From NCBI RefSeq assembly GCF_900109375.1, contig NZ_FOAB01000005.1, positions 62,001-126,000 on the forward strand: a DNA stretch of 64,000 bases, given 5' to 3'. The position numbers were made by a program, and so were the translations under genes. The DNA is from Aquimarina amphilecti (GTDB lineage: Bacteria; Bacteroidota; Bacteroidia; Flavobacteriales; Flavobacteriaceae). The notes beneath the pieces are model-generated. The model ran no database searches and was not told where the DNA came from. It saw only the letters and a list, made by a program, of their open reading frames with translations. Below are positions 11,303 to 38,944 of this stretch, one piece after another (the stretch's first letter is position 1; each line of letters opens with the position of its first letter).

Positions 11303-11612
11303 AGAGGTGTGTGTTAGTTGATTTTCAATTTTAGTTCTTAAAATGAAGCTTCTGTGCGTAAGTCGTTTATAAATATAAGAACTTAACCAGTATTAATAAT
11401 TTAGAATTAATCTAAAAAGCTAGGTTTCTGTAAGTTTTAGTAAAGAATTCGAACAGTCATTTTCCTTATAAATGGATTGAAATTTCTTTTAAACAAATTG
11501 AAAATAATTTGTAAGTAGCATATCTATGCTTCGACTCAATGCCCATTACCAAGGTAAACTTAACTTGTATTCAAAACAACTTCATTATAAGAAGTTTTTA
11601 AAATTTAAACCC
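11303..11612. other. Divergent intergenic region without a recognised gene
   Basis: This region separates the minus-strand reductase operon from the DUF547 gene. A frame extends upstream from the DUF547 start to 11526, but the extra 29 residues would precede an obvious signal peptide, so I treat it as noncoding. I see no convincing -7/-33 pair. Confidence 0.5.
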
Positions 11613-12323: not shown

Positions 12324-12389
12324 ATCATTAACGATAAGGAACATCTCCTTAAAACAAACCTATACTAATTTTAATAATTCATTTTAATC

Positions 12390-13325: not shown

Positions 13326-13350
13326 GCACTATAAAATATAAATTGTATTT

Positions 13351-13398
13351 TCAGCAGTATAAAAAAGTGAAACATGAAAAACCTTTTTATACTGCTGA
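13351..13398 (+). promoter_or_regulatory. Large inverted repeat enclosing a start codon
   Basis: TCAGCAGTATAAAAAAG (13351-13367) can pair with CTTTTTATACTGCTGA (13383-13398), giving 16 pairs with one bulged A. The 15-base loop contains the ATG of the GH113-like gene (13374-13376), and the stem contains its ribosome-binding region. No T run follows, so a plain terminator is unlikely. A translational control hairpin is the best guess. Confidence 0.5.
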
Positions 13399-23805: not shown

Positions 23806-24207
23806 TTATTTAGTTTTTTCTGCAATCCAAACTGCTAAAAAGCCTCTATCCACAGCATGAGTAGAACCGTATAATTTTCCGTTTTTATAGTAAAAGCTTG
23901 TGTTATAACTTCCGCTATTGTCACCAGATATCAGAGAAACATAAACAACATCTAATTGTGTATTAATTCTTCCTTCTTGTATTTTAACTCCTTCTCGATA
24001 AAATGTACCGTGTACAGTTTTGGAGTTGATTTTATCAATACGCATCATAGCAAAATTAGAGTCTGTTTTATCCTGAGGACTCATATCTAATTTCCATTCA
24101 CCTATTAATAATTGTAAGTCGGTATTATTTTCTTGAGAAAAGGTGGAGAAAGTAGTGATGAAAAGAACGAGTAGGCTTATTTTTTTAAAAATTGCAAAAT
24201 GTTTCAT
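23806..24207 (-). CDS. Small secreted beta-rich protein of unknown function
   Basis: Read from ATG at 24207 this gives 133 residues with a signal peptide (LLVLFITTFSTFSQ). The mature part, LLIGEWKLDMSPQ...GTFYREG...GRINTQLDVVYVSL...TSFYYKNGKLYGSTH, looks like a lipocalin/calycin-type barrel with GEW near the start. The frame extends upstream to 24312, but that would put 35 polar residues before the signal. It precedes two secreted-protein genes on the same strand. Confidence 0.6.
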   Translation of the reverse strand: MKHFAIFKKISLLVLFITTFSTFSQENNTDLQLLIGEWKLDMSPQDKTDSNFAMMRIDKINSKTVHGTFYREGVKIQEGRINTQLDVVYVSLISGDNSGSYNTSFYYKNGKLYGSTHAVDRGFLAVWIAEKTK

Positions 24208-24329
24208 TTTTATGATTTTAGAATTTGTATGAGACAAATATTGACCAAATGCAGAAAAAAATCGTTTCAATTTGCTAAATGAGACGGATTTTAGGTAAAA
24301 ACAAGGTTTCAATTTTTTAATTGAAACTT

Positions 24330-25445
24330 TTAAGACTTTGTTTTTAGCGCGCTAGGAGGTTTTCCTGTAATTTTTTTAACGGTTCTGTTAAATGAAGCTT
24401 TAGAATTAAAACCAGCATCATAGGCTAAAGCCAGAAGTGTAAGGTTATCATTTTTAGGATTGTCAAGTAATCTCTTTACTTCTTTAAAACGAAGTTCGTT
24501 TATATAATCAGTAAACTTTTTCTGGTAGATTGTATTTAAGCATTTAGTGACTAAATACGGTTTTACGGAAAGTTGTTTTGATAATGAAGCTAGGGTAAGC
24601 TCTGGATTTTTGAAGAGCTGTTCCTCTTTCATTTTAGTTTCTAAGGTTTTACGGATATTTTGTAGCTGCTCTTTCTCTTTGTCAGAAATGATTGCAATTT
24701 GTTTGAACGCACTTTCTTTTCTTCGAGCAAAACCCTCTAAACCTAACCAATAGGTAATAATTGCCATCCCTATAAATACAGGGTGTCCGTAGAAAAAATT
24801 ACTTGCAAAATTGAAGAAGAAAAAATCGATTAATATCCCAACTACATAAATGATAGAAAATATTTTCATTACTAAAACAACTCTTTTTATCCAGTCGAGT
24901 TTTTCTTCAAGAATTTTATATCCTTCTACTTGTATTGTATTACTAAGTATTTTTTCAGCTTTAATACTATAAAAAACAATTAGTGCTCCAGAAACAATAA
25001 ACATAGTAGGGTAATGCATCCATACTACATATCCCCAATACCCTAACCAAGAGAGGCTCTCCCGAGTACCATCCCAGTAAAAGTTTTGCGCTTTAATAAA
25101 AAAGCTCCAAGTAAATTCTATTAGTACAGGAAGGAAGTGAATCCAATCTTTTCTTAAAAATTTGAACTTGGGATTAACGTAACTTTTTATAAAAAAATAG
25201 ATAAGCGTTCCATATATCCAATTGTATTCTAATAGTATATGATACCAAAAATCATATCGTCCCAGCCCAAAAATATTTAAGGTCTCTACGATTAGGCGAT
25301 AAGAGAAAAAGAATAATATAGTGGCAAGAAATCGATTAGCCAAGTAGTGTACTCCATGTTTTTGCCATAAAATAATACCAAAAATGATTCCTTGTATGGC
25401 ACCAATACATAATAATATAACCAAAAGTATCTCTAACGTTTCCAC
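24330..25445 (-). CDS. AraC-type regulator with seven-helix membrane domain
   Basis: This 371-residue protein has about seven hydrophobic segments (residues 5-240) like the 7TM or 8TM receptor units of Bacteroidota. It then has a linker (KEKEQLQNIRKTLETKM) and a C-terminal AraC HTH, with PELTLASLSKQLSVKPYLVTKCLN, ALAYDAGFNSKASFNRTVKKITG and the terminal PPSAL. The membrane-bound regulator would sense an extracellular or membrane signal. It is transcribed toward the secreted-protein/YceI genes and may control them. Confidence 0.8.
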   Translation of the reverse strand: METLEILLVILLCIGAIQGIIFGIILWQKHGVHYLANRFLATILFFFSYRLIVETLNIFGLGRYDFWYHILLEYNWIYGTLIYFFIKSYVNPKFKFLRKDWIHFLPVLIEFTWSFFIKAQNFYWDGTRESLSWLGYWGYVVWMHYPTMFIVSGALIVFYSIKAEKILSNTIQVEGYKILEEKLDWIKRVVLVMKIFSIIYVVGILIDFFFFNFASNFFYGHPVFIGMAIITYWLGLEGFARRKESAFKQIAIISDKEKEQLQNIRKTLETKMKEEQLFKNPELTLASLSKQLSVKPYLVTKCLNTIYQKKFTDYINELRFKEVKRLLDNPKNDNLTLLALAYDAGFNSKASFNRTVKKITGKPPSALKTKS

Positions 25446-25469
25446 TGGATTAAAGATAAAGAAGAAGAT

Positions 25470-26180
25470 TTAAGAAACAACTTTTTCCTTATAATATCGA
25501 TACAAATCTTCTGATGAAGCTCCTAGCCATCTTCTCATATGAATATTTAGAAAGTGATATTGTAATCGCCAAACACCTACTTCTCTATAGCGTCTTGCAG
25601 AAGTAATAACATATTTAGGGATGATAACAAATTTATCAATAGCAAAAAGGCGGTCTACTAAATCGTTATCTTCATAAACGATATAAGCTTCATCATATCC
25701 ATCTATTTCTCTAAATAATGAAGCTGTAATGAATTGACTTTGATCTCCTCCACGACAGCGCTTACTTTCGAATTGAGTGAGCCAACCTAAGAATCGAAGC
25801 CACCAATGTTTAGAATCAAATTTCATTCTAAAACAACCGGCTTCATTGCCTCCATGAATTTGTTGGATAATATCCCTATCATAGCCATCAGGAGGAAAAG
25901 AATCTGCGTGTAGGAAATAAAGTATTTCTCCAGAAGCTGCAGCAGCTCCTGTATTCATTTGTTTAGCACGGCCTTTCTCTGAAGATACTAATTTAATAGG
26001 TGTTTTTTGTGTATTTGCGGAATCTGTAACAGCTTTTTGAGATTCATCCACGCTTCCTCCGTCAACTACTATAATTTCTTTAATGAAATTTGGAGAGGAA
26101 TAAGTTTGTGTCAAATGGGAAAGCAGCTTACGAATTGTAGCTGCTTCATTTAGAATAGGAATTATTATAGATATTTTCAA
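25470..26180 (-). CDS. Arsenosugar-type GT2 glycosyltransferase (TIGR04283-like, 'transferase 2')
   Basis: This 236-residue family-2 glycosyltransferase has SIIIPILNEAATIRKLLSHL, the nucleotide-binding VVDGGSVDES, GRAKQMNTGAAAASG, the metal-binding YFLHADSFPP, KRCRGGDQSQFI and YEDNDLVDRL. This combination matches the rSAM/selenodomain-associated 'transferase 2' family, usually found with ArsS/ArsM. It probably adds the aglycone or a further sugar in arsenosugar synthesis, but its exact step is not established. A DUF547 gene precedes it. Confidence 0.8.
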   Translation of the reverse strand: MKISIIIPILNEAATIRKLLSHLTQTYSSPNFIKEIIVVDGGSVDESQKAVTDSANTQKTPIKLVSSEKGRAKQMNTGAAAASGEILYFLHADSFPPDGYDRDIIQQIHGGNEAGCFRMKFDSKHWWLRFLGWLTQFESKRCRGGDQSQFITASLFREIDGYDEAYIVYEDNDLVDRLFAIDKFVIIPKYVITSARRYREVGVWRLQYHFLNIHMRRWLGASSEDLYRYYKEKVVS

Positions 26181-26207
26181 AAGGGAACTATTATTTCGAA
26201 TATAAAA

Positions 26208-26921
26208 TTACTCATTTAAACTCCAATCGTATTTTTTATATCCTTTCTTTTTTTGTTTGTCAATCTTAACTGTAGAATATTTATTTATAAAAGCTTTTGC
26301 ATCTTCGCCATCAACTTTGAAATCTTTTTTAAACCAGCTAAAGATTTTAGATACTTCTACTACTTCTTCAGTGATCGTATTTCTTTTAGGATCATTAATA
26401 AAATTCTTGGTCAAGGTTTCTAATGCATTATCTACATTGCTTGCGGTAAAAGCTCTGTTCCAAACTATTGGACAAGAAAAGGAAGCACAATTAATAGCAA
26501 AGTGAATTCTAGGATCTCCTAGTTTTCTTAGAATCTTGTGCTCTAATTCGTTTAGGCTATGTAAAACGCCATTAATTTTAAAAAACTGTCTTCCCCAAGG
26601 GTCTTTAATGTCTTTTATACTTTTTAGAGGATAATTATCAATAATTAGTTTAATGGTATAGGCATTATAAGCATTAATCCAATATGCTAGAGTCTCTTCT
26701 TTACTCCAAGATGCAGTAGGAGGATTATCAGAAAGATAGGTGAAATATTGGTACAACTGGGAACTATCTCTCATAAATCCTTTATAGTCAACTTTGCCAT
26801 CTTCAGAAACATTTATAAGTAAAATTTGATCCCAAATGGCATGATCAAGTTTTTGCTGCGCTTTTGTTTGAAAAGAGATAAATGTTATCAATACTAATAC
26901 AATGATTTTTGGGGTCTTCAT
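26208..26921 (-). CDS. Secreted DUF547 protein (paralogue)
   Basis: This 237-residue protein has a signal peptide (IIVLVLITFISFQTKAQ) and the DUF547 core. The core includes KVDYKGFM, YWINAYNAYTIKLIIDNYPL, LNELEHKILRKLGDPRIHFAINCASFSCP with the conserved His and Cys, and IFSWFKKDF near the C-terminus. It is a clear paralogue of the protein at 11613-12323. DUF547 genes recur next to TIGR04283-like transferases, and here the spacing to that gene is 27 bases. Its biochemical role is unknown. Confidence 0.82.
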   Translation of the reverse strand: MKTPKIIVLVLITFISFQTKAQQKLDHAIWDQILLINVSEDGKVDYKGFMRDSSQLYQYFTYLSDNPPTASWSKEETLAYWINAYNAYTIKLIIDNYPLKSIKDIKDPWGRQFFKINGVLHSLNELEHKILRKLGDPRIHFAINCASFSCPIVWNRAFTASNVDNALETLTKNFINDPKRNTITEEVVEVSKIFSWFKKDFKVDGEDAKAFINKYSTVKIDKQKKKGYKKYDWSLNE

Positions 26922-27108
26922 TTTTTGTAATCTTTTAATATATCCAAATGTATTCGTTCTTACAAATGGTTAAAATGTGTTCGACTTTTAGTTATTTTTT
27001 TTGTTTTTTAAATAACGAACGCTTTATTAAATATTCGTTAAATACATTGTCTTAGTCCAAAGTTTATGCCACTCCTTACAAATATAGTTATAGCTAAAAT
27101 TTTTTGAC

Positions 27109-27140
27109 TTTGCAGGTTAATTTCTGATTCCGTATTATTG
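27109..27140 (+). promoter_or_regulatory. Candidate promoter of the OYE-like gene
   Basis: TTTG (27109-27112), 20 bases, then TATTATTG (27133-27140, one mismatch to TAnnTTTG) stands 18 bases before the ATG. Confidence 0.4.
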
Positions 27141-27158
27141 TAATCGAACTATTTATAT

Positions 27159-28379
27159 ATGATTAGTACAGATTTTAAACTTCCTTGTGGAGTGATATTG
27201 AGCAACAGATTGGTGAAATCTGCTATGACAGAGCGTATTAGTAATAGTAAGTTTGAACCTACCGAAGGGCATGAACGTTTATACAGAGATTGGTCTAACA
27301 CTGGAGTAGGTTTATTAATTACAGGTAATGTTGTTATAGATCGGAAACATCTGGAATCAGCCGGAAATGTATGTTTTGATGATGAAAAAATGCTTCCTAA
27401 GTTAAAATCGTGGGCACAGGAAGCTAAAAGATATGGGAATCATATATGGGTGCAGATTTCTCATTCCGGAAGGCAGACGAATAGATTCGGTACGAATACG
27501 CCTTTAGCACCTTCGGAAGTACAATTAAAAAAGTTAGGGCTTTTTGGTAAACCCAGAGCAATGACTGAGAAAGATATATTAAATGTGATCGAACGTTTTG
27601 TAAAAGCTGCTATAATTTCTAAAGATGCTGGTTTTACAGGAATTCAAATTCATTCTGCACATGGATACTTATTAAGTCAATTTTTGTCACCTCATACAAA
27701 TCTCAGAACTGATAGTTGGGGAGGACATATCGAAAACCGAAGTCGTTTATTATTAACTATAATAAAGGAGGTACGAAAAGCTGTAGGAGTGGATTTTCCA
27801 ATTTCGGTAAAACTAAATTCTGCGGATTTTCAGAGAGGAGGATTTACTGAAGAAGAATCGTTGGAGGTAATTAAGATGTTGGATAGAGAAAAAATTGATT
27901 TACTTGAAATATCTGGAGGGACTTATGAGAAGTTAGCTTTTTTTACCATGAATGAAGAGGGTTCTGGGCTTAAAGAAAGTACAAGACAAAGGGAAGCTTA
28001 TTTCATTGATTTTGCTAAAAAAATTCGAGCTATTAGTAACCTTCCTTTAATGATTACAGGAGGCTTTAGATCATATGATTTTTGTAATGAAGTTTTGATC
28101 AATAAAGAGGTGGATTTAATTGGTATGGCAAGACCCTTTATTACTAATAGAGAGGATATTCCAAAGTTTTTAAAAGGGCAATTACCATATCTTAAGAATC
28201 TAGTTTTGCGAACTGGTCTAAAACAATTTGAAGATGCAGCAGAAGGAGGTTTTTATGCTAGGCAGATTATAAGATTTTCTAAAGGTAAAAGTTTGAAAAC
28301 TAATATGAATCCTTTATGGTGCTCTATGTTTTTGATACTATATGAGTTCAAAAAAGCGATGATAAAGAAATTGTTTTAA
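27159..28379 (+). CDS. NADH:flavin oxidoreductase, Old Yellow Enzyme family
   Basis: This 406-residue TIM-barrel flavoprotein has LSNRLVKSAMTERIS at strand 1, IWVQISHSGRQTNR with the active-site His region, GIQIHSAHGYLLSQFLSP with the paired catalytic residues, and DSWGGHIENRSRLLLTII. FMN-phosphate binding is at MITGGFRS and DLIGMARPF. It lacks the C-terminal [4Fe-4S]/FAD half of dienoyl-CoA reductases. It reduces activated alkenes using NAD(P)H. It is divergent from the DUF547 gene and convergent with the arsenosugar operon, with a shared terminator. Confidence 0.85.
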   Translation: MISTDFKLPCGVILSNRLVKSAMTERISNSKFEPTEGHERLYRDWSNTGVGLLITGNVVIDRKHLESAGNVCFDDEKMLPKLKSWAQEAKRYGNHIWVQISHSGRQTNRFGTNTPLAPSEVQLKKLGLFGKPRAMTEKDILNVIERFVKAAIISKDAGFTGIQIHSAHGYLLSQFLSPHTNLRTDSWGGHIENRSRLLLTIIKEVRKAVGVDFPISVKLNSADFQRGGFTEEESLEVIKMLDREKIDLLEISGGTYEKLAFFTMNEEGSGLKESTRQREAYFIDFAKKIRAISNLPLMITGGFRSYDFCNEVLINKEVDLIGMARPFITNREDIPKFLKGQLPYLKNLVLRTGLKQFEDAAEGGFYARQIIRFSKGKSLKTNMNPLWCSMFLILYEFKKAMIKKLF

Positions 28380-28384
28380 AAAAA

Positions 28385-28414
28385 ATATCCCTAAAACAAT
28401 GGTTTTAGGGATAT
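28385..28414. terminator. Bidirectional intrinsic terminator
   Basis: A 13-bp perfect stem, ATATCCCTAAAAC / GTTTTAGGGATAT, with a 4-base loop is flanked by A-rich and T-rich sides. It separates the OYE gene from the convergent arsenosugar operon. Confidence 0.85.
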
Positions 28415-28434
28415 AAATTTCTTCTCTTATTGAT

Positions 28435-29403
28435 TTAACAACATCCGCCACCATCATAGTGATATGTAGATTCACTTATATAAATATCTTCTCTTCCTAG
28501 ATCGGCAAGAGCACCAGCAGTTTTATCACAAATTGCTAATGGTTGATTTTTTAGTAGAACATGTCCCTTTTTATCATCAAAATAATCATCATCACCAAAA
28601 TAAATAGCTGCTTTTCCAGTAAAAATGCAAGGTCCATCTTCTGGCATTGGATCTTTAATGGCAGCTACTTCAATAGATTCTATATAGATTAATTCATCTG
28701 TTTCGTAATTCTTTGGATCTAGAATACGATAAGGTTTACGAGCTCTAATTTCTATAGTTCCAAAACCAACATCGGTTAATGCCTTTACATATTCTGCTAT
28801 CGGTAAACTTCCACTAAGACATAATGCTCTCAATCGTTCATCGTTTCTAAGTGTTTCATTCATTGGTTGCTCGCAGGTAGGATCACTCATCACCAATCTA
28901 CCATGAGGCTTTAATACACGATGCATCTCCTCAATGGCTTTTTTTAGATCTTCTGCCTTAAAAATATTGAATAAACAATTTTGCGCAGCTACATCAATGC
29001 TATTATCTTCTACCGGAAGATTTAGTGCATCACCGAATCTTAGATCTACAAAATCACTGTTAAACCATTCGTTTTGCTCTTCAGCCTCTTTGAAGTTTTT
29101 ATGAGAAGCATCTAACATTTCTTGTACGACATCAATGCCTATCACACCACTTTTTTGGCGCGAGAAATATGAGAACTGCAGTAATTCCATTCCTCCACCA
29201 ACTCCTACATATAGAATTTTTGGATTGTTGGTTAAATCACGTGCGTTTACAGTACTCCCGCAACCATAATTCATTTCCTGCATAATTTTTGGAATCTTTA
29301 ACCCAGGTAATTCCCAAATAGGATTTGTAGTACAACATAAACCTACGTCAGGTGTTAATGCTGCTTCTTTATATACATCATGTGTAGTTTCTAAATAGCT
29401 CAT
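28435..29403 (-). CDS. arsM: Arsenosugar biosynthesis arsenite methyltransferase ArsM
   Basis: This 322-residue SAM-dependent methyltransferase has the SAM motif ILYVGVGGGMELLQFSY, then VIGIDVVQEML and DLRFGDALNLPVEDNSIDVAAQNC. Cysteines suited to arsenic binding sit at Cys23-Cys24 (VGLCC), Cys48 (YGCGST), in SDPTCEQP, CLSGS, and a C-terminal GGGCC. This matches the ArsM subtype found with ArsS rather than stand-alone ArsM. It converts As(III) to methyl and dimethyl arsenic, the substrate for the radical SAM step. It is the last gene of the minus-strand operon, 50 bases after PNP. Confidence 0.85.
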   Translation of the reverse strand: MSYLETTHDVYKEAALTPDVGLCCTTNPIWELPGLKIPKIMQEMNYGCGSTVNARDLTNNPKILYVGVGGGMELLQFSYFSRQKSGVIGIDVVQEMLDASHKNFKEAEEQNEWFNSDFVDLRFGDALNLPVEDNSIDVAAQNCLFNIFKAEDLKKAIEEMHRVLKPHGRLVMSDPTCEQPMNETLRNDERLRALCLSGSLPIAEYVKALTDVGFGTIEIRARKPYRILDPKNYETDELIYIESIEVAAIKDPMPEDGPCIFTGKAAIYFGDDDYFDDKKGHVLLKNQPLAICDKTAGALADLGREDIYISESTYHYDGGGCC

Positions 29404-29453
29404 ATCTTTTTTTGTTTTCTTATTTTGAAGAGGAATTATTTATTTTATGATAA

Positions 29454-30266
29454 TTAAAGTTGCTTTATCAATTCTTTGAACAAAAGAATCATTTCTGGCT
29501 CCGCTTTTCCGGCCATTGCTATGATTTCATCAATATTAACAGGTTGTAAATTATCTGGATCACATTCATCAGTAAGGACAGATACTGCAGCAACGGGTAG
29601 GTTAAGATGATTAGCAACTATAATTTCAGGAACAGTACTCATTCCTACTGCATCAGCACCGATTATTTTTAAATAACGATATTCTGCACGAGTTTCTAAT
29701 TGAGGTCCTACTACGGATGCATATACCCCTTTATGAAGATTAATGTTGTTTTCTTTAGCAATAGATTCTAATTTCTCATTAATTTTAGGATCATAGGGAG
29801 CACTCATGTCAGTAAAACGAGTTCCTAGTTGTTCCACACCTTTAAACGCTAAAGGAGAACCTCCCTGAAGATTTATATGATCATCGATTAACATTAATTC
29901 TCCTTTTTTGAAATTTAAATTAATGGCTCCGGATGCATTAGAAACTAGTAGTGTTTTGATTCCTAATTGCTTCATTACTCGCACTGGATATGTCACATCT
30001 TGTAGAGAATATCCTTCATATAAATGAAAACGCCCCTGCATTACTACGACATTTTTGCCTTCCAGTTTTCCGTAAATTAGTTTTCCTTTATGGAATTCTA
30101 CTGTAGCTGTTGGGAAATTCGGAATATGATTATAGCTTACTTCTTTTAGAATTTCTATTTCATCTAATAGTTGGCCTAGTCCTGTTCCTAGTATAATACC
30201 TATTTCTGGATTTTCAAAACCTTTTTCTTGTAGGTATTCTGTAGTCTCTTTGATGTATTTAGTCAT
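29454..30266 (-). CDS. Purine nucleoside phosphorylase (trimeric PNP family)
   Basis: This 270-residue protein has IGIILGTGLGQLLDEI, the phosphate-binding VVMQGRFHLYEGYSLQDVT, LLVSNASGAIN, GPQLETRAEYR, GADAVGMSTVPEI and the base-contact LTDECDPDNLQP. It cleaves purine (deoxy)ribonucleosides with phosphate. Its 8-base overlap with the transferase gene, inside an arsenosugar operon, suggests it removes adenine from the ArsS product (a 5'-dimethylarsenyl-5'-deoxyadenosine), leaving arsenoribose 1-phosphate. A housekeeping purine-salvage role is also possible. Confidence 0.82.
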   Translation of the reverse strand: MTKYIKETTEYLQEKGFENPEIGIILGTGLGQLLDEIEILKEVSYNHIPNFPTATVEFHKGKLIYGKLEGKNVVVMQGRFHLYEGYSLQDVTYPVRVMKQLGIKTLLVSNASGAINLNFKKGELMLIDDHINLQGGSPLAFKGVEQLGTRFTDMSAPYDPKINEKLESIAKENNINLHKGVYASVVGPQLETRAEYRYLKIIGADAVGMSTVPEIIVANHLNLPVAAVSVLTDECDPDNLQPVNIDEIIAMAGKAEPEMILLFKELIKQL

Positions 30267-30876
30267 TTTGATAGCTTAATAAATGTTGAAAAACGGAGAT
30301 GTCTTTAATGTCTTCATAATAATCTACATCATTTCGTTCTTCTAATAATTTGATGTTAGTTTGTTGTATATCGTTTAATGTATCTTTTAATACTGTATTT
30401 GTTCCCCATGATTTGTTTTGAAAAACTTTTGAGTTCAAAGACTTCAATCCGAATAAGTAATAACCACCATCTTCGGCGGGGCCAATTACATAATCGTGAT
30501 TTTTCAATGCTTTAAAAGCATTTTCAATATCCAGTTGGTTGAGGTCATACATGTCACTTCCTATTACAATTATGTTGGTATATCCTGCATTAAAACCATT
30601 TCGGAAAGCACTACACATTCTAGCACCAAGATCTTCTCCTTGTTGCAGTCTTTTATTATATGTAGTCGGGTTCCAAATGTCATTTTCGCCAACTTTTGTA
30701 GAATAATATACTTCTTTTGTAACCGAAAGACTTTTGGTAATAGTTACAGTGTGATCCAACAATAGTTGATACACTTCTAGAGCAGCTTGATCTCCTATAG
30801 TAGCTGCTAATCGAGTTTTGCACTTACCCAGTTCTGGGTTTCTAGTAAAGATCATTAATAGGTTCTTTTCTATCAC
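30259..30876 (-). CDS. Arsenosugar-associated transferase 1 (TIGR04282 / DUF2064-like), copy A
   Basis: This 205-residue CofC/nucleotidyltransferase-like protein begins NLLMIFTRNPELGKCKTRLA, the family hallmark (P-x-G-x-x-K-T-R). It then has GEDLGARMCSAF, IIVIGSDMYDL, VIGPAEDGGYYLFGL and KSWGTNTVLKDTL. Such proteins are co-encoded with rSAM/selenodomain proteins and could activate the arsenoribose phosphate as a nucleotide sugar, although no reaction is proven. It overlaps the rhodanese gene by 4 bases and PNP by 8, indicating translational coupling. Confidence 0.8.
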   Translation of the reverse strand: MIEKNLLMIFTRNPELGKCKTRLAATIGDQAALEVYQLLLDHTVTITKSLSVTKEVYYSTKVGENDIWNPTTYNKRLQQGEDLGARMCSAFRNGFNAGYTNIIVIGSDMYDLNQLDIENAFKALKNHDYVIGPAEDGGYYLFGLKSLNSKVFQNKSWGTNTVLKDTLNDIQQTNIKLLEERNDVDYYEDIKDISVFQHLLSYQND

Positions 30877-31373
30877 TTTTTATATACTTTTTTTCCTTTG
30901 TGTAACCATTCCCCCCATTGTTTGGAAAATGCGTGTACTTTATTTGTTTCTTCTCCTTTAGTATTGATTACTTTATGGTTCTCATTTTTCCATTCAAAAA
31001 TTCCTCCGTATAAATTAGATATATCATTATAACCAGCTTTCTTTAATTTTTCTGAAATGTCTTCTGATCGTATTCCTAAACTACAGTAAACAACAATTTT
31101 AGATTCTTTAGAAATGCTTTGATCTGATATAACATCGATATCAAAGTGATGATATCCTACATGTATGGCGCCTTCTAAGTGACTTGTTTCATACTCAACA
31201 ATTTCTCTAGCATCTAGTAAAATAACTTTATCATATATAGTACTTAGCTCCTTTACGGATATGTATGGTATACTTTCATTATTATACTTATCAAGCAATT
31301 CTTTTAATGAATCTTGACTTACAACCAAAAACGGTGATGTAATAAAAATGAATGCTAAAATTGTTGTTTTCAT
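30873..31373 (-). CDS. Secreted single-domain rhodanese
   Basis: The ATG at 31373 gives 166 residues with a signal peptide (ILAFIFITSPFLVVSQ); an upstream ATG at 31409 would add 12 residues before it. The rhodanese domain contains VILLDAREIVEYETSHLEGAIHV in parts, and the active-site loop VVYCSLGIRSEDIS with the catalytic Cys. NLYGGIFEWK closes the domain. Such proteins transfer sulfur. In this operon it might supply thiol sulfur for thio-arsenicals or reduce arsenic species in the periplasm, but that is speculation. It overlaps the next gene by 4 bases. Confidence 0.8.
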   Translation of the reverse strand: MKTTILAFIFITSPFLVVSQDSLKELLDKYNNESIPYISVKELSTIYDKVILLDAREIVEYETSHLEGAIHVGYHHFDIDVISDQSISKESKIVVYCSLGIRSEDISEKLKKAGYNDISNLYGGIFEWKNENHKVINTKGEETNKVHAFSKQWGEWLHKGKKVYKK

Positions 31374-31516
31374 GTAATCTTTACTATCGATCGTAGCGCT
31401 ATACTGCAATATTGAATATGGATTTGTTTGAAGAAAGTAATAACCTAGACTTTGCTAAGGGTTTATTTAACTTTCCTATAAATAGAAGGCTATAGTAAAA
31501 TTGAAAATTATTAAAC

Positions 31517-32197
31517 TTAAGCCATATAAAAGGGAGATCCTTTATTGTAAAAAGACGATAGTAGATAAGTGTCTTTTAATAGTTTGTTAAGGTTAAATAT
31601 TTCTTTTTCAGTATTTATAATCTGATAGATTATAGTTTTAAGAGTTGTAGAGAACTTAGAACTGAGTCTAGATACAATTTTTAAATCTTCAAGGGAATCA
31701 ATATCATGTAAAACCTCTAGTCGAGCCACTTCAATTTTTGAAGTGTTAATCATTACCGATATGCTCTTAGCTAGTTTCTTTGATTGCCATGGGAGTTCTA
31801 AAAAAGTATTTAAATTAAATTGAGATTTATGTAATCCCATTAGATAAAATCCTCCATCAGAAGATGGTCCTATAACAAATTTTTCATTTTCAAGTTGTAT
31901 AGCACTATCTAATAAATGATTTTTATTTAGGTGAGGAGTATCATTTCCTATTGTAATTACATTTTCATACCCTAGATCGTAAGTATCTTGAATTGCATTT
32001 ACAAATCGTTCACCAAAGTTTTTTCCATTTTGATTTTTTTCTGTGAATACAAAAAAGGGAAGTCCCGAACTCTTTACAACCTTAATTGTTTTTTTTGTAA
32101 GTTCAGTAAATAACTTTTCACCTCCAATAATAGGCTTGTTAAGAAGCTCTTCTTTAGAAGAGTTCGCGAAAACTAATATGGCGGTTCTTTTATTCAT
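31517..32197 (-). CDS. TIGR04282/DUF2064-like transferase, divergent copy B
   Basis: A 226-residue paralogue of the 205-residue transferase. It keeps GKNFGERFVNAIQDTYDLGYENVITIGNDTPHL in parts, FVIGPSSDGGFYLMGL and LHDIDSLEDL, but the N-terminal P-x-G-x-x-K-T-R loop is lost (it reads FANSSKEELLNKPI). It also has an extra C-terminal tail of about 40 residues. Loss of the nucleotide-binding loop suggests a changed or regulatory role. It lies 4 bases after the arsS gene. Confidence 0.7.
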   Translation of the reverse strand: MNKRTAILVFANSSKEELLNKPIIGGEKLFTELTKKTIKVVKSSGLPFFVFTEKNQNGKNFGERFVNAIQDTYDLGYENVITIGNDTPHLNKNHLLDSAIQLENEKFVIGPSSDGGFYLMGLHKSQFNLNTFLELPWQSKKLAKSISVMINTSKIEVARLEVLHDIDSLEDLKIVSRLSSKFSTTLKTIIYQIINTEKEIFNLNKLLKDTYLLSSFYNKGSPFYMA

Positions 32198-32201
32198 TTT
32201 T

Positions 32202-33257
32202 TTATGCTACCGTTCCCTGACAGCTACTTCCAGCTCCAGCAGTACAACCGTAACAGTGCTGAGAGATAATAATATTTCTATTTTGGAGTAACTCTTCATT
32301 ATACTCGCTAATATGTTTTACTTTACTGGCTACTTTAAGATCAAGCATCTGATTAAAATCACAATCGTATAACCATCCATCCCAACTAATAGAAATAGTA
32401 TTAGTACACATTACATTTTCTACTGCTGATGGATTATAAGCTTCTACTAATGCGTACATATAATCTTCATAATTTTCAGAAGCAATTAGGTAATCCAGAA
32501 ATCTACTGATTGGTAAATTAGTAATTGCAAACAAATTATGAAAGTGAATTCCAAAATCTTCTATCAAAGCTTTTTTAAACTCTTTTTCCATAGAGGCTTG
32601 ATCTCCTGGTAAAAAAGCTCCAGAAGGATTATAAACTAAATCTAGTCTAAGATCACTGTCTGGCATGCCATAACCTCTTTCATTCAGTTCTTGTAAGGCT
32701 TTTATTGATTTATCAAAAACTCCATCTCCCCGTTGTTTATCTGTTTTACCTCTAGTCCAATGTGGCATTGAAGAAACCACGTGTACATTATGTTTTTTGA
32801 AGAAATCAGGCAGATCGTAATATTTTTTATTTGCTCTTATAATAGTCAAATTACTTCGTACAATAAAATCTTTAATTCCTGCTTTACTAGCTTCTTCTAC
32901 AAACCATCTAAAATTGGGATTCATTTCAGGAGCTCCACCTGTAAGATCCAGTGTATGTGCTCCCGTTTTCCTTATGACTTCTAAACATTGTAGCATAGTT
33001 TCTTTTGTCATAATTTCTTTACGATCAGGACCTGCATCTACATGACAATGCTCACAAACTTGATTGCACATATATCCCACATTGATTTGTAAGACTTCTA
33101 ATTTATTAGGTCGTAGTGGGTTATGTCCTATTTCTGCGATTTTATCTGCAAATTTCGGCAATTCTCCATTCGCGAAAATCCCGTTATTCAGAATCTCTAA
33201 TTGTCTATGAGAATCTGCTAGTTCGTTATTTCTATTTTTAAGCGACTTAGTAGCCAT
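32202..33257 (-). CDS. arsS: Arsenosugar biosynthesis radical SAM protein ArsS
   Basis: This 351-residue radical SAM enzyme has the [4Fe-4S] motif at Cys64, Cys68 and Cys71 (CNQVCEHC), LDLTGGAPEMNPNFRWFVE for SAM binding, and the C-terminal Cys-rich region CDFNQMLDL plus HCYGCTAGAGSSCQG. It matches the 'radical SAM/Cys-rich' family, shown in cyanobacteria to be needed for arsenosugar synthesis. It joins the 5'-deoxyadenosyl radical from SAM to dimethylarsenic. It is the second gene of its operon, after the AhpD-like gene. Confidence 0.88.
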   Translation of the reverse strand: MATKSLKNRNNELADSHRQLEILNNGIFANGELPKFADKIAEIGHNPLRPNKLEVLQINVGYMCNQVCEHCHVDAGPDRKEIMTKETMLQCLEVIRKTGAHTLDLTGGAPEMNPNFRWFVEEASKAGIKDFIVRSNLTIIRANKKYYDLPDFFKKHNVHVVSSMPHWTRGKTDKQRGDGVFDKSIKALQELNERGYGMPDSDLRLDLVYNPSGAFLPGDQASMEKEFKKALIEDFGIHFHNLFAITNLPISRFLDYLIASENYEDYMYALVEAYNPSAVENVMCTNTISISWDGWLYDCDFNQMLDLKVASKVKHISEYNEELLQNRNIIISQHCYGCTAGAGSSCQGTVA

Positions 33258-33321
33258 ATATTATTTTTAATCATTGATTTTATCAAAGTTATTAAGGTTA
33301 CTATAATTTGTAGTAATCATA

Positions 33322-33657
33322 TTACATTGATAATTTTTCATATTTATTCATCATTTGCACACCGTGTACTAAAGTTGCACCACTTTCTATTGCTGCTCCT
33401 GCATGCACCGCTTCCATCATTTCTTCTTTTGTAATACCTTTCTGAAGTCCATCTTTTGTGTATGCATCAATACAGTACGGGCACTTTACTACATGGGATA
33501 CAGCAAGGGCTATAAGAGACTTTTCTCGCGCGGATAAAGCACCTTCTTCAAAAACTTTTCCGTAATAATCAAAGAATTTTGTTCCTAGCTCTTCACTCCA
33601 TTCCGTTATTTTTCCAAATTTTCTAAGATCCGCAGGATCGTAATATGTTTTAGACAT
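33322..33657 (-). CDS. Arsenosugar-associated AhpD-like / carboxymuconolactone decarboxylase family protein
   Basis: This 111-residue alpha-helical protein has ALSAREKSLIALAVSHVVKCPYCIDAYTKDG with the CxxC redox pair (Cys-Pro-Tyr-Cys), and the conserved 'EEMMEAVHAGAAI'. This is the AhpD/CMD fold. A small subfamily of such 'peroxidase-like' proteins is consistently paired with ArsS. It may protect the radical enzyme or act as a thiol reductant. It is the first gene of the operon, with a promoter candidate about 70 bases upstream. Confidence 0.8.
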   Translation of the reverse strand: MSKTYYDPADLRKFGKITEWSEELGTKFFDYYGKVFEEGALSAREKSLIALAVSHVVKCPYCIDAYTKDGLQKGITKEEMMEAVHAGAAIESGATLVHGVQMMNKYEKLSM

Positions 33658-34315
33658 GTGTTGTCAATTTTAAGTTAGAAGCATTTATTGTTAGTCGTAC
33701 TACAAAGATCAAAGCTTACAATAAATCCAAATTTATTTAATAAAGACTAAAGTCAACATTATGAAGATAAAATAAAAGTTAATGTTAAATAATTATGTGT
33801 TTTTATTATAAAAATATTAGTTGTCAACTAATAAAAATATATGATTTAGAAAATAAGTGACGTTTTATTTTATTTTTAATTTTAGATATTTTTAGTTTCA
33901 CTTGTTAAGATAATAGTATACTTTTTTGTTTCGCAAAAAGCTCATGATTATTGTTATAAACGATAAAGTGCATAGAGATAATATATTTATTTAATCTATA
34001 TTAATTTTCATTTTATCGATCTTAGTTATTTATATTATTTTAACACTTTTTGGGTATAAATATCTGATTTTCAGTTATTTTTTTGAATATTTTGGATTTT
34101 AAAATAAACTATATTCCTTACATGTACATAGAATGTTAAGATTAATGAATTGGTTTAAATTAGGATGTATTGTTGTAGCTTTATCAATATTAATGACAAA
34201 AAATCTAAAATATTTATTTACTCTGTTGAGTGGGTTTAAGTAGATATTTATTAAGAAGATTTGAAAGATAGATTTGTAAATACATTTATTGTTTAAAAAT
34301 TAAAAGGTAAGACTA
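33658..34315. other. Long AT-rich divergent regulatory region
   Basis: This separates the arsenosugar operon from the GH3 genes. It contains the minus-strand promoter candidate (33728-33756), an ATCGAT core at 34015-34020, and the string ATTGTTTAAAAATTAAAA at 34288-34305, which recurs before the GH13 gene. A 36-codon frame from 34133 to 34243 could encode a hydrophobic peptide but has no supporting signal. Confidence 0.5.
33728..33756 (-). promoter_or_regulatory. Candidate promoter of the arsenosugar operon
   Basis: On the minus strand TTG (33756-33754), 18 bases, then TAAATTTG (33735-33728) fit the Bacteroidota -33/-7 pattern. The first gene starts about 70 bases further on. I see no ArsR-type operator. 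Confidence 0.4.
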
Positions 34316-36625
34316 GTGAAGGATTATAAAAAATATAACTTAAGGGGTGTAAGTTTAGTTATAGCGGGGCTTTTTTTATTTATACCAAAATATAGTTTCT
34401 CTCAAAACAAAGAGAGTAAAGAATCTTCTAACATAGAAAAGAAAGTAGATTCTTTAATAGCTATTATGACACTAAAAGAGAAAATTGGCCAACTGGTTTT
34501 GTATAATGGTAGTTGGGATGTAACTGGCCCACCTTCTGATGTAGGAAATAAAGAGAAATACGAAAAATTAAGAAACGGTGAAGTTGGAGCCATGCTTAAT
34601 GCTACCTCTGTTGCAGGAACTAAAGAATTGCAGAAAACGGTTATTGAGAATTCACGGTTAAAAATTCCATTACTATTTGGATATGATGTAATTCACGGTT
34701 TTAAAACTATTTTTCCAATTCCTCTTGGAGAAAGTGCAAGTTGGGATCTAGAGGCAATTACTAAATCTTCATCTATAGCCGCAAAAGAAGCGACGGCATC
34801 AGGTATAAACTGGGCATTTGGACCAATGATGGATATTTCTAGAGATGCTCGTTGGGGTAGGGTTATGGAAGGAGCTGGAGAAGATCCTTTTTTAGCTTCA
34901 AAAATAGCTGTTGCACGAATTGAAGGTTTTCAAGGAGATGATTTGTCTAAAAATAATACGCTGGCTGCTTGTGCTAAGCATTTTGCTGCATATGGTTTTG
35001 CAGAAGGAGGAAGGGATTATAATACTGTGAGTATAGGTGAGTATGAGTTGCATAATACAGTGTTGCCTCCATTTAAAGCCGCAGTGGATGCAGGTGTAGC
35101 TTCCATGATGAGTTCGTTTAATGAGATTGATGGAATACCGGCGACAGGACATAAAGGACTGCAAAGAGATATTCTTAAAAATACTTGGGATTGGGATGGA
35201 TTTATAGTTTCAGATTGGGCTTCTATTTCGGAGATGATATTTCATGGATATGCAAAAGATAAGACACATGCAGCAGAGTTAGCTATAAAAGCTGGTAACG
35301 ACATGGATATGGAGGGTAGAGCTTATGAAGCAGGTTTAGAACAATTAGTAAAGGAAGGAAAACTTGATGAAAAATTAATTGAGGAAGCGGCTAAAAGGAT
35401 ACTTAGAGTTAAATTTAAATTAGGACTTTTTGCTGATCCATTTAAATATTGTGATGAGGATCGTGAGAAAAATGATATCTATACTAAGGAACATCTAGAA
35501 GTAGCAAGGGATGTGGCAAGAAAGTCTATTGTTCTGCTTAAGAATGATAAGAATGTGCTTCCGCTTAAGAAGAATATAAAAAGCCTTGCTGTAATCGGAC
35601 CATTAGCAGACGATAAAGATACTCCAATTGGAAGTTGGAGGGGTATGGCAACACCAAATTCAGCTGTTTCTCTTTTAGAAGGAATCAAAGCAACTGTAGA
35701 TAAAACTACTAAAATTTCATATGCAAAAGGTGTTGAGCTTGGTGTAGGTGAACGAAGTTTTGTGCGTGACTTAAAGGTAAATAGAGATGATTTTAAGGGT
35801 ATAGAAGAAGCGGTAAATATAGCAAAAAACGCAGAAGTTGTTGTTTTGGCTATTGGAGAAGAAGCTTTTCAGTCAGGAGAGGCCAGAAGTCAGGTAGATA
35901 TAGAATTAACAAAGCCTCAACAAAAGTTGTTCGAAGAGATCTATGCTGTAAATAAAAATATTGTAGTTGTTCTTATGAATGGCCGTCCTATGGCAATATC
36001 TAATGTTGCAGAGAAAGCGCCATCTGTAGTAGAGACGTGGCATTTGGGTTCGACATCAGGTAGCGCGATTGCAGATGTGCTATTTGGAGATTATAATCCT
36101 TCAGGTAAATTACCAGTTTCTTTTCCAAGACATGTTGGTCAACTACCATTGTATTATAATGTAAAGAATACAGGAAGACCAATAAATGCGGATGGAATGG
36201 TGTTTTGGTCCCATTATACTGATGAAAAACATGATGCCTTGTTTCCTTTTGGACATGGATTAAGCTACACTAATTTTAAGTATAAAGATTTTAAAATAAA
36301 TGCCCCGTCATTTACGTCTGGAGGAAATCTATCAGTCTCAGTAACGGTTACCAATACCGGTAAAAGAAAAGGAAAAGAAGTTGTACAATTATATATCAGA
36401 GACTTATTTGGAAGTTTAACACGTCCTGTGAAAGAACTTAAAGACTTTAAATTAATTAAACTAGAGCCTAATGAAAGTAAAACAGTGACTTTTAAGATTG
36501 ATGAAAAGACCATTCAGTTTTATACCGCTAATAAGAAGTGGGAAGCAGAGGATGGTGACTTTAAAGTGTTCGTAGGAGGTAGTTCAAAAACAGATTTGGA
36601 AATTGATTTTTCTTTTAAAAAATAA
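34316..36625 (+). CDS. Secreted GH3 beta-glucosidase (BglX-like)
   Basis: This 769-residue protein starts with GTG; the next Met would remove the signal peptide (SLVIAGLFLFIPKYSFSQ). The order is a GH3 N-terminal barrel, GH3 C-terminal sandwich and a fibronectin-III-like domain. The nucleophile is Asp300 in FIVSDWASISEM. Binding motifs are GYDVIHGFKTIFP, GPMMDISRDARWGRVMEGAGEDP in parts, KHFAAYGF and GRP in LMNGRPMAIS. It would release glucose or similar sugars from beta-linked oligosaccharides in the periplasm. The stop codon is followed at once by the ATG of a second GH3 gene. Confidence 0.88.
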   Translation: MKDYKKYNLRGVSLVIAGLFLFIPKYSFSQNKESKESSNIEKKVDSLIAIMTLKEKIGQLVLYNGSWDVTGPPSDVGNKEKYEKLRNGEVGAMLNATSVAGTKELQKTVIENSRLKIPLLFGYDVIHGFKTIFPIPLGESASWDLEAITKSSSIAAKEATASGINWAFGPMMDISRDARWGRVMEGAGEDPFLASKIAVARIEGFQGDDLSKNNTLAACAKHFAAYGFAEGGRDYNTVSIGEYELHNTVLPPFKAAVDAGVASMMSSFNEIDGIPATGHKGLQRDILKNTWDWDGFIVSDWASISEMIFHGYAKDKTHAAELAIKAGNDMDMEGRAYEAGLEQLVKEGKLDEKLIEEAAKRILRVKFKLGLFADPFKYCDEDREKNDIYTKEHLEVARDVARKSIVLLKNDKNVLPLKKNIKSLAVIGPLADDKDTPIGSWRGMATPNSAVSLLEGIKATVDKTTKISYAKGVELGVGERSFVRDLKVNRDDFKGIEEAVNIAKNAEVVVLAIGEEAFQSGEARSQVDIELTKPQQKLFEEIYAVNKNIVVVLMNGRPMAISNVAEKAPSVVETWHLGSTSGSAIADVLFGDYNPSGKLPVSFPRHVGQLPLYYNVKNTGRPINADGMVFWSHYTDEKHDALFPFGHGLSYTNFKYKDFKINAPSFTSGGNLSVSVTVTNTGKRKGKEVVQLYIRDLFGSLTRPVKELKDFKLIKLEPNESKTVTFKIDEKTIQFYTANKKWEAEDGDFKVFVGGSSKTDLEIDFSFKK

Positions 36626-38944
36626 ATGATGCAAAAATTATATATAATATTACTAGTCTTAATTGTAATAAGTTGTGACTCTAAAGAGAGCGTAGAAAAT
36701 AAAAAGTCGATTTCAGAAAAACCTTCAATGAATACAGAATTAGATGATAAAGTAGCCGCCCTTCTTTCGGAAATGACTCTTGAAGAAAAAGTTGGTCAAA
36801 TGACTCAGATTACGCTTGATGTTGTTACAAAAGGTGATAATCAGTTTAGTTCGGCACAACCGTATCAGTTAGATTCTGCATTAGTTCATAAGGCAATTCA
36901 TACTTATAAAGTAGGATCCATACTTAATACTCCAGGAGTTCCTTTGTCAAGACAAGATTGGTATAAGACCATTAAAATATTTCAGGATGAAGCAGCTAAA
37001 ACTCCAAGACAGATTCCGATAATTTATGGAATAGATGCTATTCACGGAGTTAACTATACAATTGGTGCAACATTATTTCCGCAGCAAATAGGATTGGCCG
37101 CGACTTTTAATAAAGAGTTAGTTAAGGAAGTAGCTGAAATTTCGGCTTATGAAACTAGAGCGTCATCAATTCCTTGGAATTTCTCGCCTGTATTAGGTTT
37201 GGGAAGAAATCCATTATGGCCTCGATTATGGGAAACATTTGGAGAAGATGTGTATTTAGGTAAAACAATGGGAGTAGCTATGGTAGAAGGTTATCAAGGG
37301 AATCTTGGTGATCCAAATACAGTAGCCTCTTGTATGAAACATTACTTAGGTTATAGTGTTCCTCTTTCTGGAAAAGATCGTACACCAGCGTGGATACCCG
37401 AAAGAGAATTAAGACAATATTTTTTACCAGCATTTAGAGAAGCAGTAGATGCAGGATCTGTAACTTTAATGATCAATTCTGGAGAAATAAACGGAGTTCC
37501 TGTGCACGCTAGTAAATTCTTACTCACAGATGTGTTAAGAAATGAACTTGGTTTTGATGGTATTGCGGTTACGGATTGGGCGGATATCAATTATCTGCAT
37601 ACAAGACATAAAGTTGCGGAGACAATTAAAGACGCGATTAGAATGTCTGTAAATGCAGGGATAGATATGAGTATGGTGCCACATGATTTTGAATTCATTG
37701 AATTACTTGTGGAGTTAGTGAAAGAAGGAAGTGTTTCTGAAGAAAGAATCAATAGTGCTGTATCGAGAATATTAAAGGTTAAGATGCAATTAGATTTGTT
37801 TGAAAATCCAGTAACAAGGTCTGAGGATTATCCAGATTTTGGTTCTGGCAAGTTTGCTCAGGTCAGTAAGAATGCGGCTTTAGAATCTTTTACATTGTTA
37901 AAAAATAAGAATAACATTTTGCCCTTAGAAAAAGGAACCAAAATATTAGTAACTGGTCCAACTGCAAATACAATGAGATCTCTTAACGGCGGATGGTCTT
38001 ATAATTGGCAGGGTAGTGAAGCTGATAATTATGCAAAGGATAAAAACACGATTGCTGAAGCTTTTGTGAATTTAGGTAATGTTTTCGTGGAGGGAGTTTC
38101 TTTTAAAAAGAGTGGTATTGATAGCAACACTTCGCAAGAAATTTTATTTGAAGATAAAAATAATATCAGTGCTGCAATGAAGGCTGCTAAAAATAGTGAT
38201 GTCATTTTGTTATGTTTAGGTGAAAATTCATATACGGAAACACCAGGGAATATTAATTCTATTATGATGCCTAAGGATCAAATTAAATTGGCTAAAGCAT
38301 TGTCTAAAACAGGAAAAAAAATAATACTGGTTTTATTAGAAGGAAGGCCTATTATTTTTAATGAAATAGAACCATTGGTTGATGCTGTTTTTATGGGGTA
38401 TCTTCCTGGTAATCATGGGGCAGATGCTTTGTCAGATTTGTTATTTGGAATAGAAAGCCCATCTGGTAGATTGCCAATTAATTATCCAAAACACCCGCAT
38501 GCGTTTGTAAACTATAATCATAAGCATTCTGATAATATTGCAGTGCCAAATTATTATGAATCTGATTATGATCAGCAATACGAATTTGGTGATGGATTAT
38601 CATATACTAGTTTTGAATATAGTAATTTATCATTGAGTTCTTCTGAAATGAAACAAGACGGATCTATTACTGTTTCTGTAAAGGTTACCAACACTGGAAA
38701 CAGAAAAGGAAAGGAGGCCGTATTATTGTTCGTTAGTGATCTATATGCTAGTATTACTCCGGAAGTTCGTGCGTTAAAAGGATATGAGAAAATAACATTA
38801 AATGAAGGAGAGTTTAAGGAAGTTTCTTTTACAATAACCAAAGACGAATTATCTTTTGTAAATGAGAGTTTAGAAACAATTGCTGAGTCAGGGGAATTTG
38901 AAATTAGGATCGGAGATTTAAAGAAAAAATTTGAGCTTAAATAA
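36626..38944 (+). CDS. GH3 glycoside hydrolase lipoprotein
   Basis: This 772-residue protein has a lipobox (LVLIVISCDS, Cys at about residue 16). It has the same three-domain order as the preceding GH3, but the binding regions differ: GIDAIHGVNYTIGATLFPQ, SPVLGLGRNPLWPRLWETFGED in parts, MKHYLGYS. The nucleophile is Asp317 in AVTDWADINYLH, and the Fn3-like domain ends near residue 770. The extended pocket loops suggest a different oligosaccharide, such as a beta-1,3- or beta-1,6-glucan fragment. It is joined without a gap to the upstream gene. Confidence 0.88.
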   Translation: MMQKLYIILLVLIVISCDSKESVENKKSISEKPSMNTELDDKVAALLSEMTLEEKVGQMTQITLDVVTKGDNQFSSAQPYQLDSALVHKAIHTYKVGSILNTPGVPLSRQDWYKTIKIFQDEAAKTPRQIPIIYGIDAIHGVNYTIGATLFPQQIGLAATFNKELVKEVAEISAYETRASSIPWNFSPVLGLGRNPLWPRLWETFGEDVYLGKTMGVAMVEGYQGNLGDPNTVASCMKHYLGYSVPLSGKDRTPAWIPERELRQYFLPAFREAVDAGSVTLMINSGEINGVPVHASKFLLTDVLRNELGFDGIAVTDWADINYLHTRHKVAETIKDAIRMSVNAGIDMSMVPHDFEFIELLVELVKEGSVSEERINSAVSRILKVKMQLDLFENPVTRSEDYPDFGSGKFAQVSKNAALESFTLLKNKNNILPLEKGTKILVTGPTANTMRSLNGGWSYNWQGSEADNYAKDKNTIAEAFVNLGNVFVEGVSFKKSGIDSNTSQEILFEDKNNISAAMKAAKNSDVILLCLGENSYTETPGNINSIMMPKDQIKLAKALSKTGKKIILVLLEGRPIIFNEIEPLVDAVFMGYLPGNHGADALSDLLFGIESPSGRLPINYPKHPHAFVNYNHKHSDNIAVPNYYESDYDQQYEFGDGLSYTSFEYSNLSLSSSEMKQDGSITVSVKVTNTGNRKGKEAVLLFVSDLYASITPEVRALKGYEKITLNEGEFKEVSFTITKDELSFVNESLETIAESGEFEIRIGDLKKKFELK

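Follow-up and report, generated by a model that had tools for sequence, protein, structure and literature searches.

We found that a 64,000-nucleotide stretch of the genome of Aquimarina amphilecti (contig NZ_FOAB01000005.1, positions 62,001 to 126,000; hereafter the window) contains, on its minus strand, a conserved arsenosugar cluster of a known kind, in which a trimeric purine nucleoside phosphorylase (PNP) and a member of family TIGR04282 stand beside the arsenite methyltransferase ArsM and the radical S-adenosylmethionine (SAM) enzyme ArsS. We consider the chance somewhat better than even that the locus encodes a route leading from ArsM via ArsS, PNP and TIGR04282 to the glycosyltransferase TIGR04283. 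More tentative, and in our view slightly short of an even chance, is the general proposal that bacterial arsenosugars are made via an arsenic-bearing nucleotide sugar, with PNP (in Bacteroidota) or MTAP, the methylthioadenosine (MTA) phosphorylase (in Proteobacteria), yielding arsenoribose-1-phosphate, TIGR04282 converting this to a nucleoside-diphospho-arsenoribose and TIGR04283 acting last.

In the proposed route ArsM would methylate arsenite to dimethylarsenic and ArsS would join the 5'-deoxyadenosyl group of SAM to the latter; an excerpt of PMC12159101 states that arsenic is adenosylated by a radical SAM enzyme. PNP would then exchange adenine for phosphate, giving 5-deoxy-5-dimethylarsino-alpha-ribose-1-phosphate, TIGR04282 would act as a CofC/FbiD-like nucleotidyltransferase that turns this arsenoribose-1-phosphate into nucleoside-diphospho-arsenoribose, and TIGR04283, an inverting glycosyltransferase of family 2 (GT2), would pass the arsenoribose to glycerol, glycerophosphate or a lipid. 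As PNP would invert the beta configuration to the alpha-1-phosphate, TIGR04282 would keep alpha and the GT2 would invert again, the predicted product is a beta-ribofuranoside, which is the known anomer, as in the arsenosugar that the title of PMC6656958 names. The first two steps rest on family membership, with their chemistry taken from the work of others, and we infer the last three.

The proteins proposed for this route were assigned to their families by profile searches (all genes lie on the minus strand unless stated otherwise). ArsM, of the arsenosugar type (28435-29403), scored 575.8 bits against NF038099 (cut-off 400), and ArsS, the radical SAM arsenic adenosyltransferase (32202-33257), 437.8 bits against TIGR04167 (cut-off 300). 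The identities given to both proteins by an initial annotation of the region are confirmed by these scores, and the radical SAM protein falls inside the ArsS family in the very profile search that the annotation had named as a way to overturn it. ArsS carries the CxxxCxxC motif (CNQVCEHC) and is of the cysteine form, its open reading frame (ORF) being free of in-frame UGA. The TIGR04282 protein (30259-30876), our candidate arsenoribose-1-phosphate nucleotidyltransferase, scored 219.4 bits (cut-off 134) over profile positions 1-189 of 189, and the GT2-type TIGR04283 protein (25470-26180), proposed to transfer arsenoribose from the nucleotide, 230 bits (cut-off 182). The PNP-type trimeric phosphorylase (29454-30266), to which we tentatively assign the phosphorolysis of 5'-arsino-5'-deoxyadenosine, passed PRK08202 widely (347.2 bits, cut-off 218) and TIGR01700 narrowly (297.7 bits, cut-off 293.35) and stayed below the MTAP model TIGR01694 (102.2 bits, cut-off 274.85).

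The company that PNP keeps is conserved among relatives. We compared the 80 best-matching flavobacterial ArsS loci (out of at least 586 relatives), which are close kin and nearly all labelled as genera of Flavobacteriaceae (one locus, L170, repeats another, L123); among the matches listed, the closest ArsS relatives were from Aquimarina-type Flavobacteriaceae (94-95% identity). With gaps and losses, the recurring order was AhpD-ArsS-(DUF2064b)-(SusC-SusD-symporter-phosphoesterase)-rhodanese-TIGR04282-PNP-ArsM-(fatty acid hydroxylase or phosphate transporter)-DUF547-TIGR04283, and because this order recurs the array is beyond chance. Clustering of ORFs recovered TIGR04282 in 62 of the 80 loci, PNP in 60, rhodanese in 53, ArsM in 48, DUF547 in 40 and TIGR04283 in 32. 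Joint presence was judged on the 62 loci that reach 20.5 kb, 48 of which contain both TIGR04282 and PNP and 14 neither; the genomes of those 14 (Maribacter, Muricauda, Arenibacter and kin) have TIGR04282 elsewhere, adjoined by PNP in every case and then by ArsM (8), TIGR04283 (3) or DUF547 (3). TIGR04282 and PNP are spaced by -30 to 100 bases in 43 of 60 loci, overlap in 31 (possibly an overcount, the first possible start codon having been used) and are less than 0.9 kb apart in 59, the exception being L106 with 8.4 kb between them.

On proteobacterial plasmids a different phosphorylase can fill the same slot. Among 72,556 plasmid records, 52 contain ArsS (E<=1e-20), Burkholderia accounting for 47, and of the six plasmid neighbourhoods examined (one of these 47 among them) four were proteobacterial, three of which have an MTA phosphorylase instead of PNP. 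In Acinetobacter portensis, ArsS, DUF547, TIGR04283, TIGR04282, a methyltransferase and a phosphate transporter are followed by an MTA phosphorylase on the opposite strand; in Cupriavidus sp. KK10 (an unannotated record, with ORFs called by us) it immediately follows TIGR04282; and in Burkholderia glumae TIGR04282-TIGR04283-MTA phosphorylase lie close to ArsS and DUF547. The Acinetobacter (314.8 bits) and Cupriavidus (276.3 bits) proteins exceed the TIGR01694 cut-off of 274.85, and the Burkholderia glumae protein is an MTA phosphorylase by annotation. The presence of PNP in one phylum and MTAP in another, both with TIGR04282, argues that phosphorolysis of a 5'-modified adenosine belongs to the pathway, and is our best evidence. 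That PNP performs a third step, as the initial annotation had suggested, is thus well supported by gene company (the conserved TIGR04282-PNP pair and the replacement by MTAP in three of four proteobacterial clusters), which speaks for PNP as a functional member of the pathway; adding a nucleotide-sugar step to it is plausible. Spread of ArsS by phages was also considered and rejected, as no match at E<=1e-20 was found in 50,697 phage records.

Co-occurrence was surveyed in a class-wide sample of 198 genomes, 32 of which have ArsS over the cut-off and 166 of which are ArsS-negative (thresholds: E<=1e-30 for TIGR04282, E<=1e-80 for ArsM and E<=1e-50 for TIGR04283; the Fisher tests made on these data ignore shared ancestry). 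All 32 ArsS-positive genomes carry TIGR04282, 20 of them less than 5 kb from ArsS; 14 of the 166 others have it too (13 over the cut-off). Arsenosugar-type ArsM occurred in 17 of 32 versus none of 166, and TIGR04283 in 13 of 32 versus none of 166, the last possibly undercounted since at most 14 candidates per genome were scored. Linkage of PNP to ArsS is the rule in the flavobacterial set and a minority elsewhere. Several observations weigh against the proposed route. TIGR04282 does occur in those 14 genomes that lack ArsS, only 13 of the 32 ArsS-positive genomes pass the strict TIGR04283 search, and only 10 of the 32 (seven families) have PNP as part of their ArsS locus; a further one, G108, has DUF547-TIGR04282-PNP at a locus apart from ArsS, and in the other 21 no PNP linkage was seen within the stretches examined. 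In 12 ArsS-positive genomes TIGR04282 stands apart from ArsS, and of these G108 alone pairs it with PNP and 11 do not. The surroundings of TIGR04282 in 13 of the 14 ArsS-negative genomes (G050 was left out) revealed one pairing with PNP, a DUF547-rhodanese-TIGR04282-PNP cluster in G062 (L280, G062:C32:23700-34300). These class-level neighbour counts are lower bounds, because the length-greedy choice of ORFs misses genes (the ArsS label was absent in L138 and TIGR04282 in L287 of G188, both found by another search), and so are those at short contigs (G031, G072). Finally, the plasmid loci of Pseudanabaena, Hymenobacter and Thiodictyon showed neither PNP nor MTAP at up to 8-9 kb from ArsS, which is weak evidence because the PLSDB gene table is incomplete. 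The initial annotation had looked to other loci for comparison; the gene order does recur in flavobacteria, and the one cyanobacterial locus examined showed no phosphorylase within 9 kb.

The product might not be a glycerol arsenosugar at all, and another adenosyl-derived organoarsenical or an arsenolipid is an unlikely outcome that nevertheless has to be taken seriously. A fatty-acid-hydroxylase-like gene in 19 and a PiT phosphate transporter in 7 of the 80 flavobacterial loci, together with an annotated sterol desaturase near ArsS on the Acinetobacter and Thiodictyon plasmids, would fit a lipid; the cluster of the window contains no such gene, and even a route that ends in a lipid would have to pass through the sugar intermediates proposed above.

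A second question concerns TIGR04282, for which we prefer a nucleotidyltransferase. The AlphaFold2 (AF2) model of the protein (predicted local distance difference test, pLDDT, 94.9) has CofC/FbiD nucleotidyltransferases as its nearest solved structures outside its own family, the side match in NCBIfam is the CofC equivalog TIGR03552 (34.3 bits, below the cut-off of 105), and the C-terminal DxD region aligns, weakly (E 0.12), with CofC MM2497. Its tightest partner is a phosphorylase, so a sugar phosphate fits as substrate. The NCBI name makes the family a glycosyltransferase, which could use arsenoribose-1-phosphate or another donor directly, or the protein might activate the aglycone (a phosphoglycerate-like acceptor) in the manner of CofC relatives; both the sharing of the nucleotidyltransferase fold with GT-A glycosyltransferases and the score of IspD/TarI, which barely exceeds that of the best glycosyltransferase, speak for caution here. 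Judging from the model and these matches, a nucleotidyltransferase appears more likely than a glycosyltransferase, and we regard such other uses of TIGR04282 as rather doubtful. Of the "TIGR04282-like transferases" of the initial annotation, one is a member by score and is more likely to be a nucleotidyltransferase, and the second, DUF2064b (31517-32197), is degenerate (102.5 bits, below the cut-off of 134, with a match confined to profile positions 71-189). In DUF2064b the DGG and C-terminal DID motifs are preserved, the N-terminal PELGKxKTRL loop is missing, and the protein ends in NKGSP and a short tail; because the match covers the C-terminal part only and the loop is absent, it is probably no active TIGR04282 copy. 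A paralogue in the same genome (C9:430129-430491, in L240) also lacks the loop, has the C-terminal NKGSP motif that DUF2064b and relatives have, and adjoins a 1044-amino-acid protein without an NCBIfam match at E<=1e-5. The two may perhaps be non-catalytic partners.

The PNP itself could be a mere housekeeping purine or MTA phosphorylase, whose place in the operon reflects supply or salvage needs, with the arsenosugar route proceeding without phosphorolysis. No second protein of this genome matches the trimeric PNP model, and no MTA nucleosidase was over the cut-off there (27.4 versus 73.8 bits), so the cluster PNP may also serve housekeeping or salvage. The residues of the active site were compared in 99 PNPs from part of the 198 genomes (the second PNP of G140 was left out), at positions that we take to follow human PNP numbering. 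In classic PNPs the 5'-OH is contacted by His257, a position that is hydrophobic in MTAP. Glu201, Leu200, Asp243 and Ile, Leu or Val at 257 were found in 11 of 11 linked class-level copies (10 at ArsS loci, including that of the window, and that of G108), the same pattern, with hydrophobic 257, in 57 of 57 alignable flavobacterial PNPs (three of 60 were gapped at these columns and left out), and hydrophobic 257, read by pattern, in 14 of 14 copies at the second loci of the split flavobacterial genomes. We had to reject N243D as a sign of adenosine use, since it is present in 8 of 8 unlinked PNPs and in 95 of the 99 class PNPs and hence is not diagnostic. Likewise rejected was the hydrophobic 257 pocket as an ArsS-specific trait: it is a permissive state, found in 9 of 22 unlinked PNPs of ArsS-positive genomes and in 25 of 65 PNPs of ArsS-negative ones. 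The Asp243 and the open 5' pocket, common in Bacteroidota PNPs without ArsS, and the 21 unlinked class genomes thus fit a housekeeping enzyme. The adjoining of PNP to TIGR04282, and then to ArsM, TIGR04283 or DUF547, in all 14 split genomes does not, nor does the substitution by MTAP in three proteobacterial clusters; moreover, both a linked and an unlinked PNP were available from five genomes, and four of these (G074, G083, G111, G108) combine a hydrophobic 257 in the linked copy with His257 in the unlinked one, which has Leu in G085. A quick tree was made from 109 PNPs, 11 of them chosen from the flavobacterial 60; in it all 21 linked copies, these 11 included, fell in one group of 24 rows (support 82), together with the TIGR04282-linked PNP of G108 and two copies from ArsS-negative genomes. 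We therefore regard a purely housekeeping PNP as improbable. An even more remote idea, that PNP serves arsenolysis-coupled arsenate reduction and not adenine removal, has the in vitro reduction of arsenate by PNP plus dithiol in its favour (excerpt of PMC12608789) and leaves the MTAP replacement and the TIGR04282 pairing unexplained, so that we consider it very improbable.

All genes named in the initial annotation were present on the minus strand within 28435-33657, where seven genes follow in the order AhpD-like, ArsS, DUF2064b, rhodanese, TIGR04282, PNP, ArsM. Overlaps of the sizes that it had reported (4 and 8 bases) exist at only two of the six junctions (rhodanese/TIGR04282 and TIGR04282/PNP, respectively) and not at "several"; the gaps are 64 bases for AhpD/ArsS, 4 for ArsS/DUF2064b, 107 for DUF2064b/rhodanese (143 if rhodanese starts at a likelier ATG) and 50 for PNP/ArsM. 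Directly 3' of ArsM, a hairpin on the minus strand (28385-28414, 13 pairs, 4 of them G-C, with a T tail) resembles an intrinsic terminator by pattern match and is the probable end of the operon transcript; such sites number 9 in 24000-34400 versus 4.1 expected. Downstream of it come a plus-strand gene of the old-yellow-enzyme family (27159-28379), which interrupts the minus-strand cluster and had no match in the 80 flavobacterial loci (tblastn, 35% coverage), and then, again on the minus strand, DUF547 and TIGR04283. These last two lie outside 28435-33657, yet are members of the ArsS gene set in relatives, and with the second TIGR04282-like gene degenerate, the description of a "complete operon" was an overstatement. 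There are probably two transcription units, AhpD-ArsS-DUF2064b-rhodanese-TIGR04282-PNP-ArsM and DUF547-TIGR04283. At 10004-14365 a DUF547 paralogue is flanked by genes for a flavin adenine dinucleotide (FAD) oxidoreductase and a GH113-like lipoprotein. In many relatives these two families come after TIGR04283; in the window they are about 11-15 kb distant, which is a sign of rearrangement. Upstream of AhpD, 34316-38944 holds two tandem plus-strand genes that look GH3 beta-glucosidase-like by eye.

The first gene of the operon (33322-33657) encodes an AhpD/carboxymuconolactone-decarboxylase-like protein, an arsenosugar-associated peroxidase-like family (TIGR04169, 198.7 bits, cut-off 120), with a CxxC motif (CPYC); by tblastn, each of the 80 flavobacterial loci has this gene directly 5' of ArsS. 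The rhodanese-like protein (30873-31409; NF045521, 202.1 bits, cut-off 145) has a catalytic-type cysteine in CSLGIR and, from the inner ATG at 31373, a putative signal peptide by eye, so that it appears to be exported. The DUF547 protein (26208-26921; PF04784, 93.9 bits), which recurs in ArsS clusters, gave a confident AF2 model (pLDDT 91.1) without a solved-structure match in the PDB at E<=0.001, and a PDB sequence search yielded nothing at E<=0.1. AhpD, rhodanese, DUF547 and DUF2064b are accessories, possibly with redox or thiolation roles. Fifteen of the 80 loci (SusD in 14; e.g. L064:11862-18771 and L039:2762-9110) carry genes from a SusC-SusD-sodium symporter-metallophosphoesterase block, usually after DUF2064b inside the operon or just upstream of AhpD; the window has none at 31410-31516. 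The block suggests the uptake of some pathway-linked substrate. A search of this genome for the arsenic exporters Acr3 and ArsB found no ArsB and no Acr3 over the cut-off, other exporters being outside its scope, so arsenosugar formation may weigh more in the arsenic handling of this strain. The sole Acr3-like match (G000:C9:398180-399037, L255) was weak (45.5 bits) and has two in-frame stops.

In seaweeds most organic arsenic is present as arsenosugars and arsenolipids (abstract of PMC6656958), and Group I ArsMs are already published as common to cyanobacteria and Bacteroidetes (excerpt of PMC5552862). The open-licence PMC literature yielded no phosphorylase or nucleotidyltransferase assigned to arsenosugar formation, no account of the way from the adenosyl-arsenical to the glycoside or of an arsenic nucleotide sugar and, among the matches listed, nothing on flavobacterial arsenosugars; novelty is provisional because subscription papers are mostly outside such a search. 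If the proposal is true, an arsenic pathway has on at least two occasions taken in a salvage-type phosphorylase, and it uses a class of nucleotide sugar for which that literature yielded no description. Gene company names enzymes and ordered, assayable steps for the poorly known middle of the pathway, calls into question the label of TIGR04282, a family that accompanies ArsS in every ArsS-positive genome of the class-wide sample, and places arsenosugar genes in many flavobacteria, beyond photosynthetic organisms.

ArsS has reportedly been studied by Cheng et al. (2021, cited in PMC12159101) in the cyanobacterial ArsM-ArsS arsenosugar pathway. The window shares with that pathway ArsM and the radical SAM protein ArsS (the ArsS of a Pseudanabaena plasmid, with ArsM nearby, is 48.1% identical to that of the window) and adds PNP, TIGR04282, rhodanese, AhpD, DUF547 and TIGR04283. 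All five families of the NCBIfam "arsenosugar biosynthesis" set (TIGR04167, NF038099, TIGR04169, TIGR04282 and TIGR04283) are found here over their cut-offs, whereas the PNP and MTAP models that were matched carry no arsenosugar label, and the "glycosyltransferase" label of TIGR04282 is one that we doubt. Compared with CofC/FbiD and 3-phosphoglycerate guanylyltransferase (2i5e, 6bwg/6bwh, 7p97), the TIGR04282 protein is only 15-17% identical and far below the cut-off of TIGR03552. With the trimeric MTAP/PNP phosphorylases the PNP of the window shares a score over the PNP-family cut-off, MTAP filling its slot in three proteobacterial clusters; the cluster PNPs differ in Leu200 and in Ile, Leu or Val at 257, while retaining the Glu of the PNP type.

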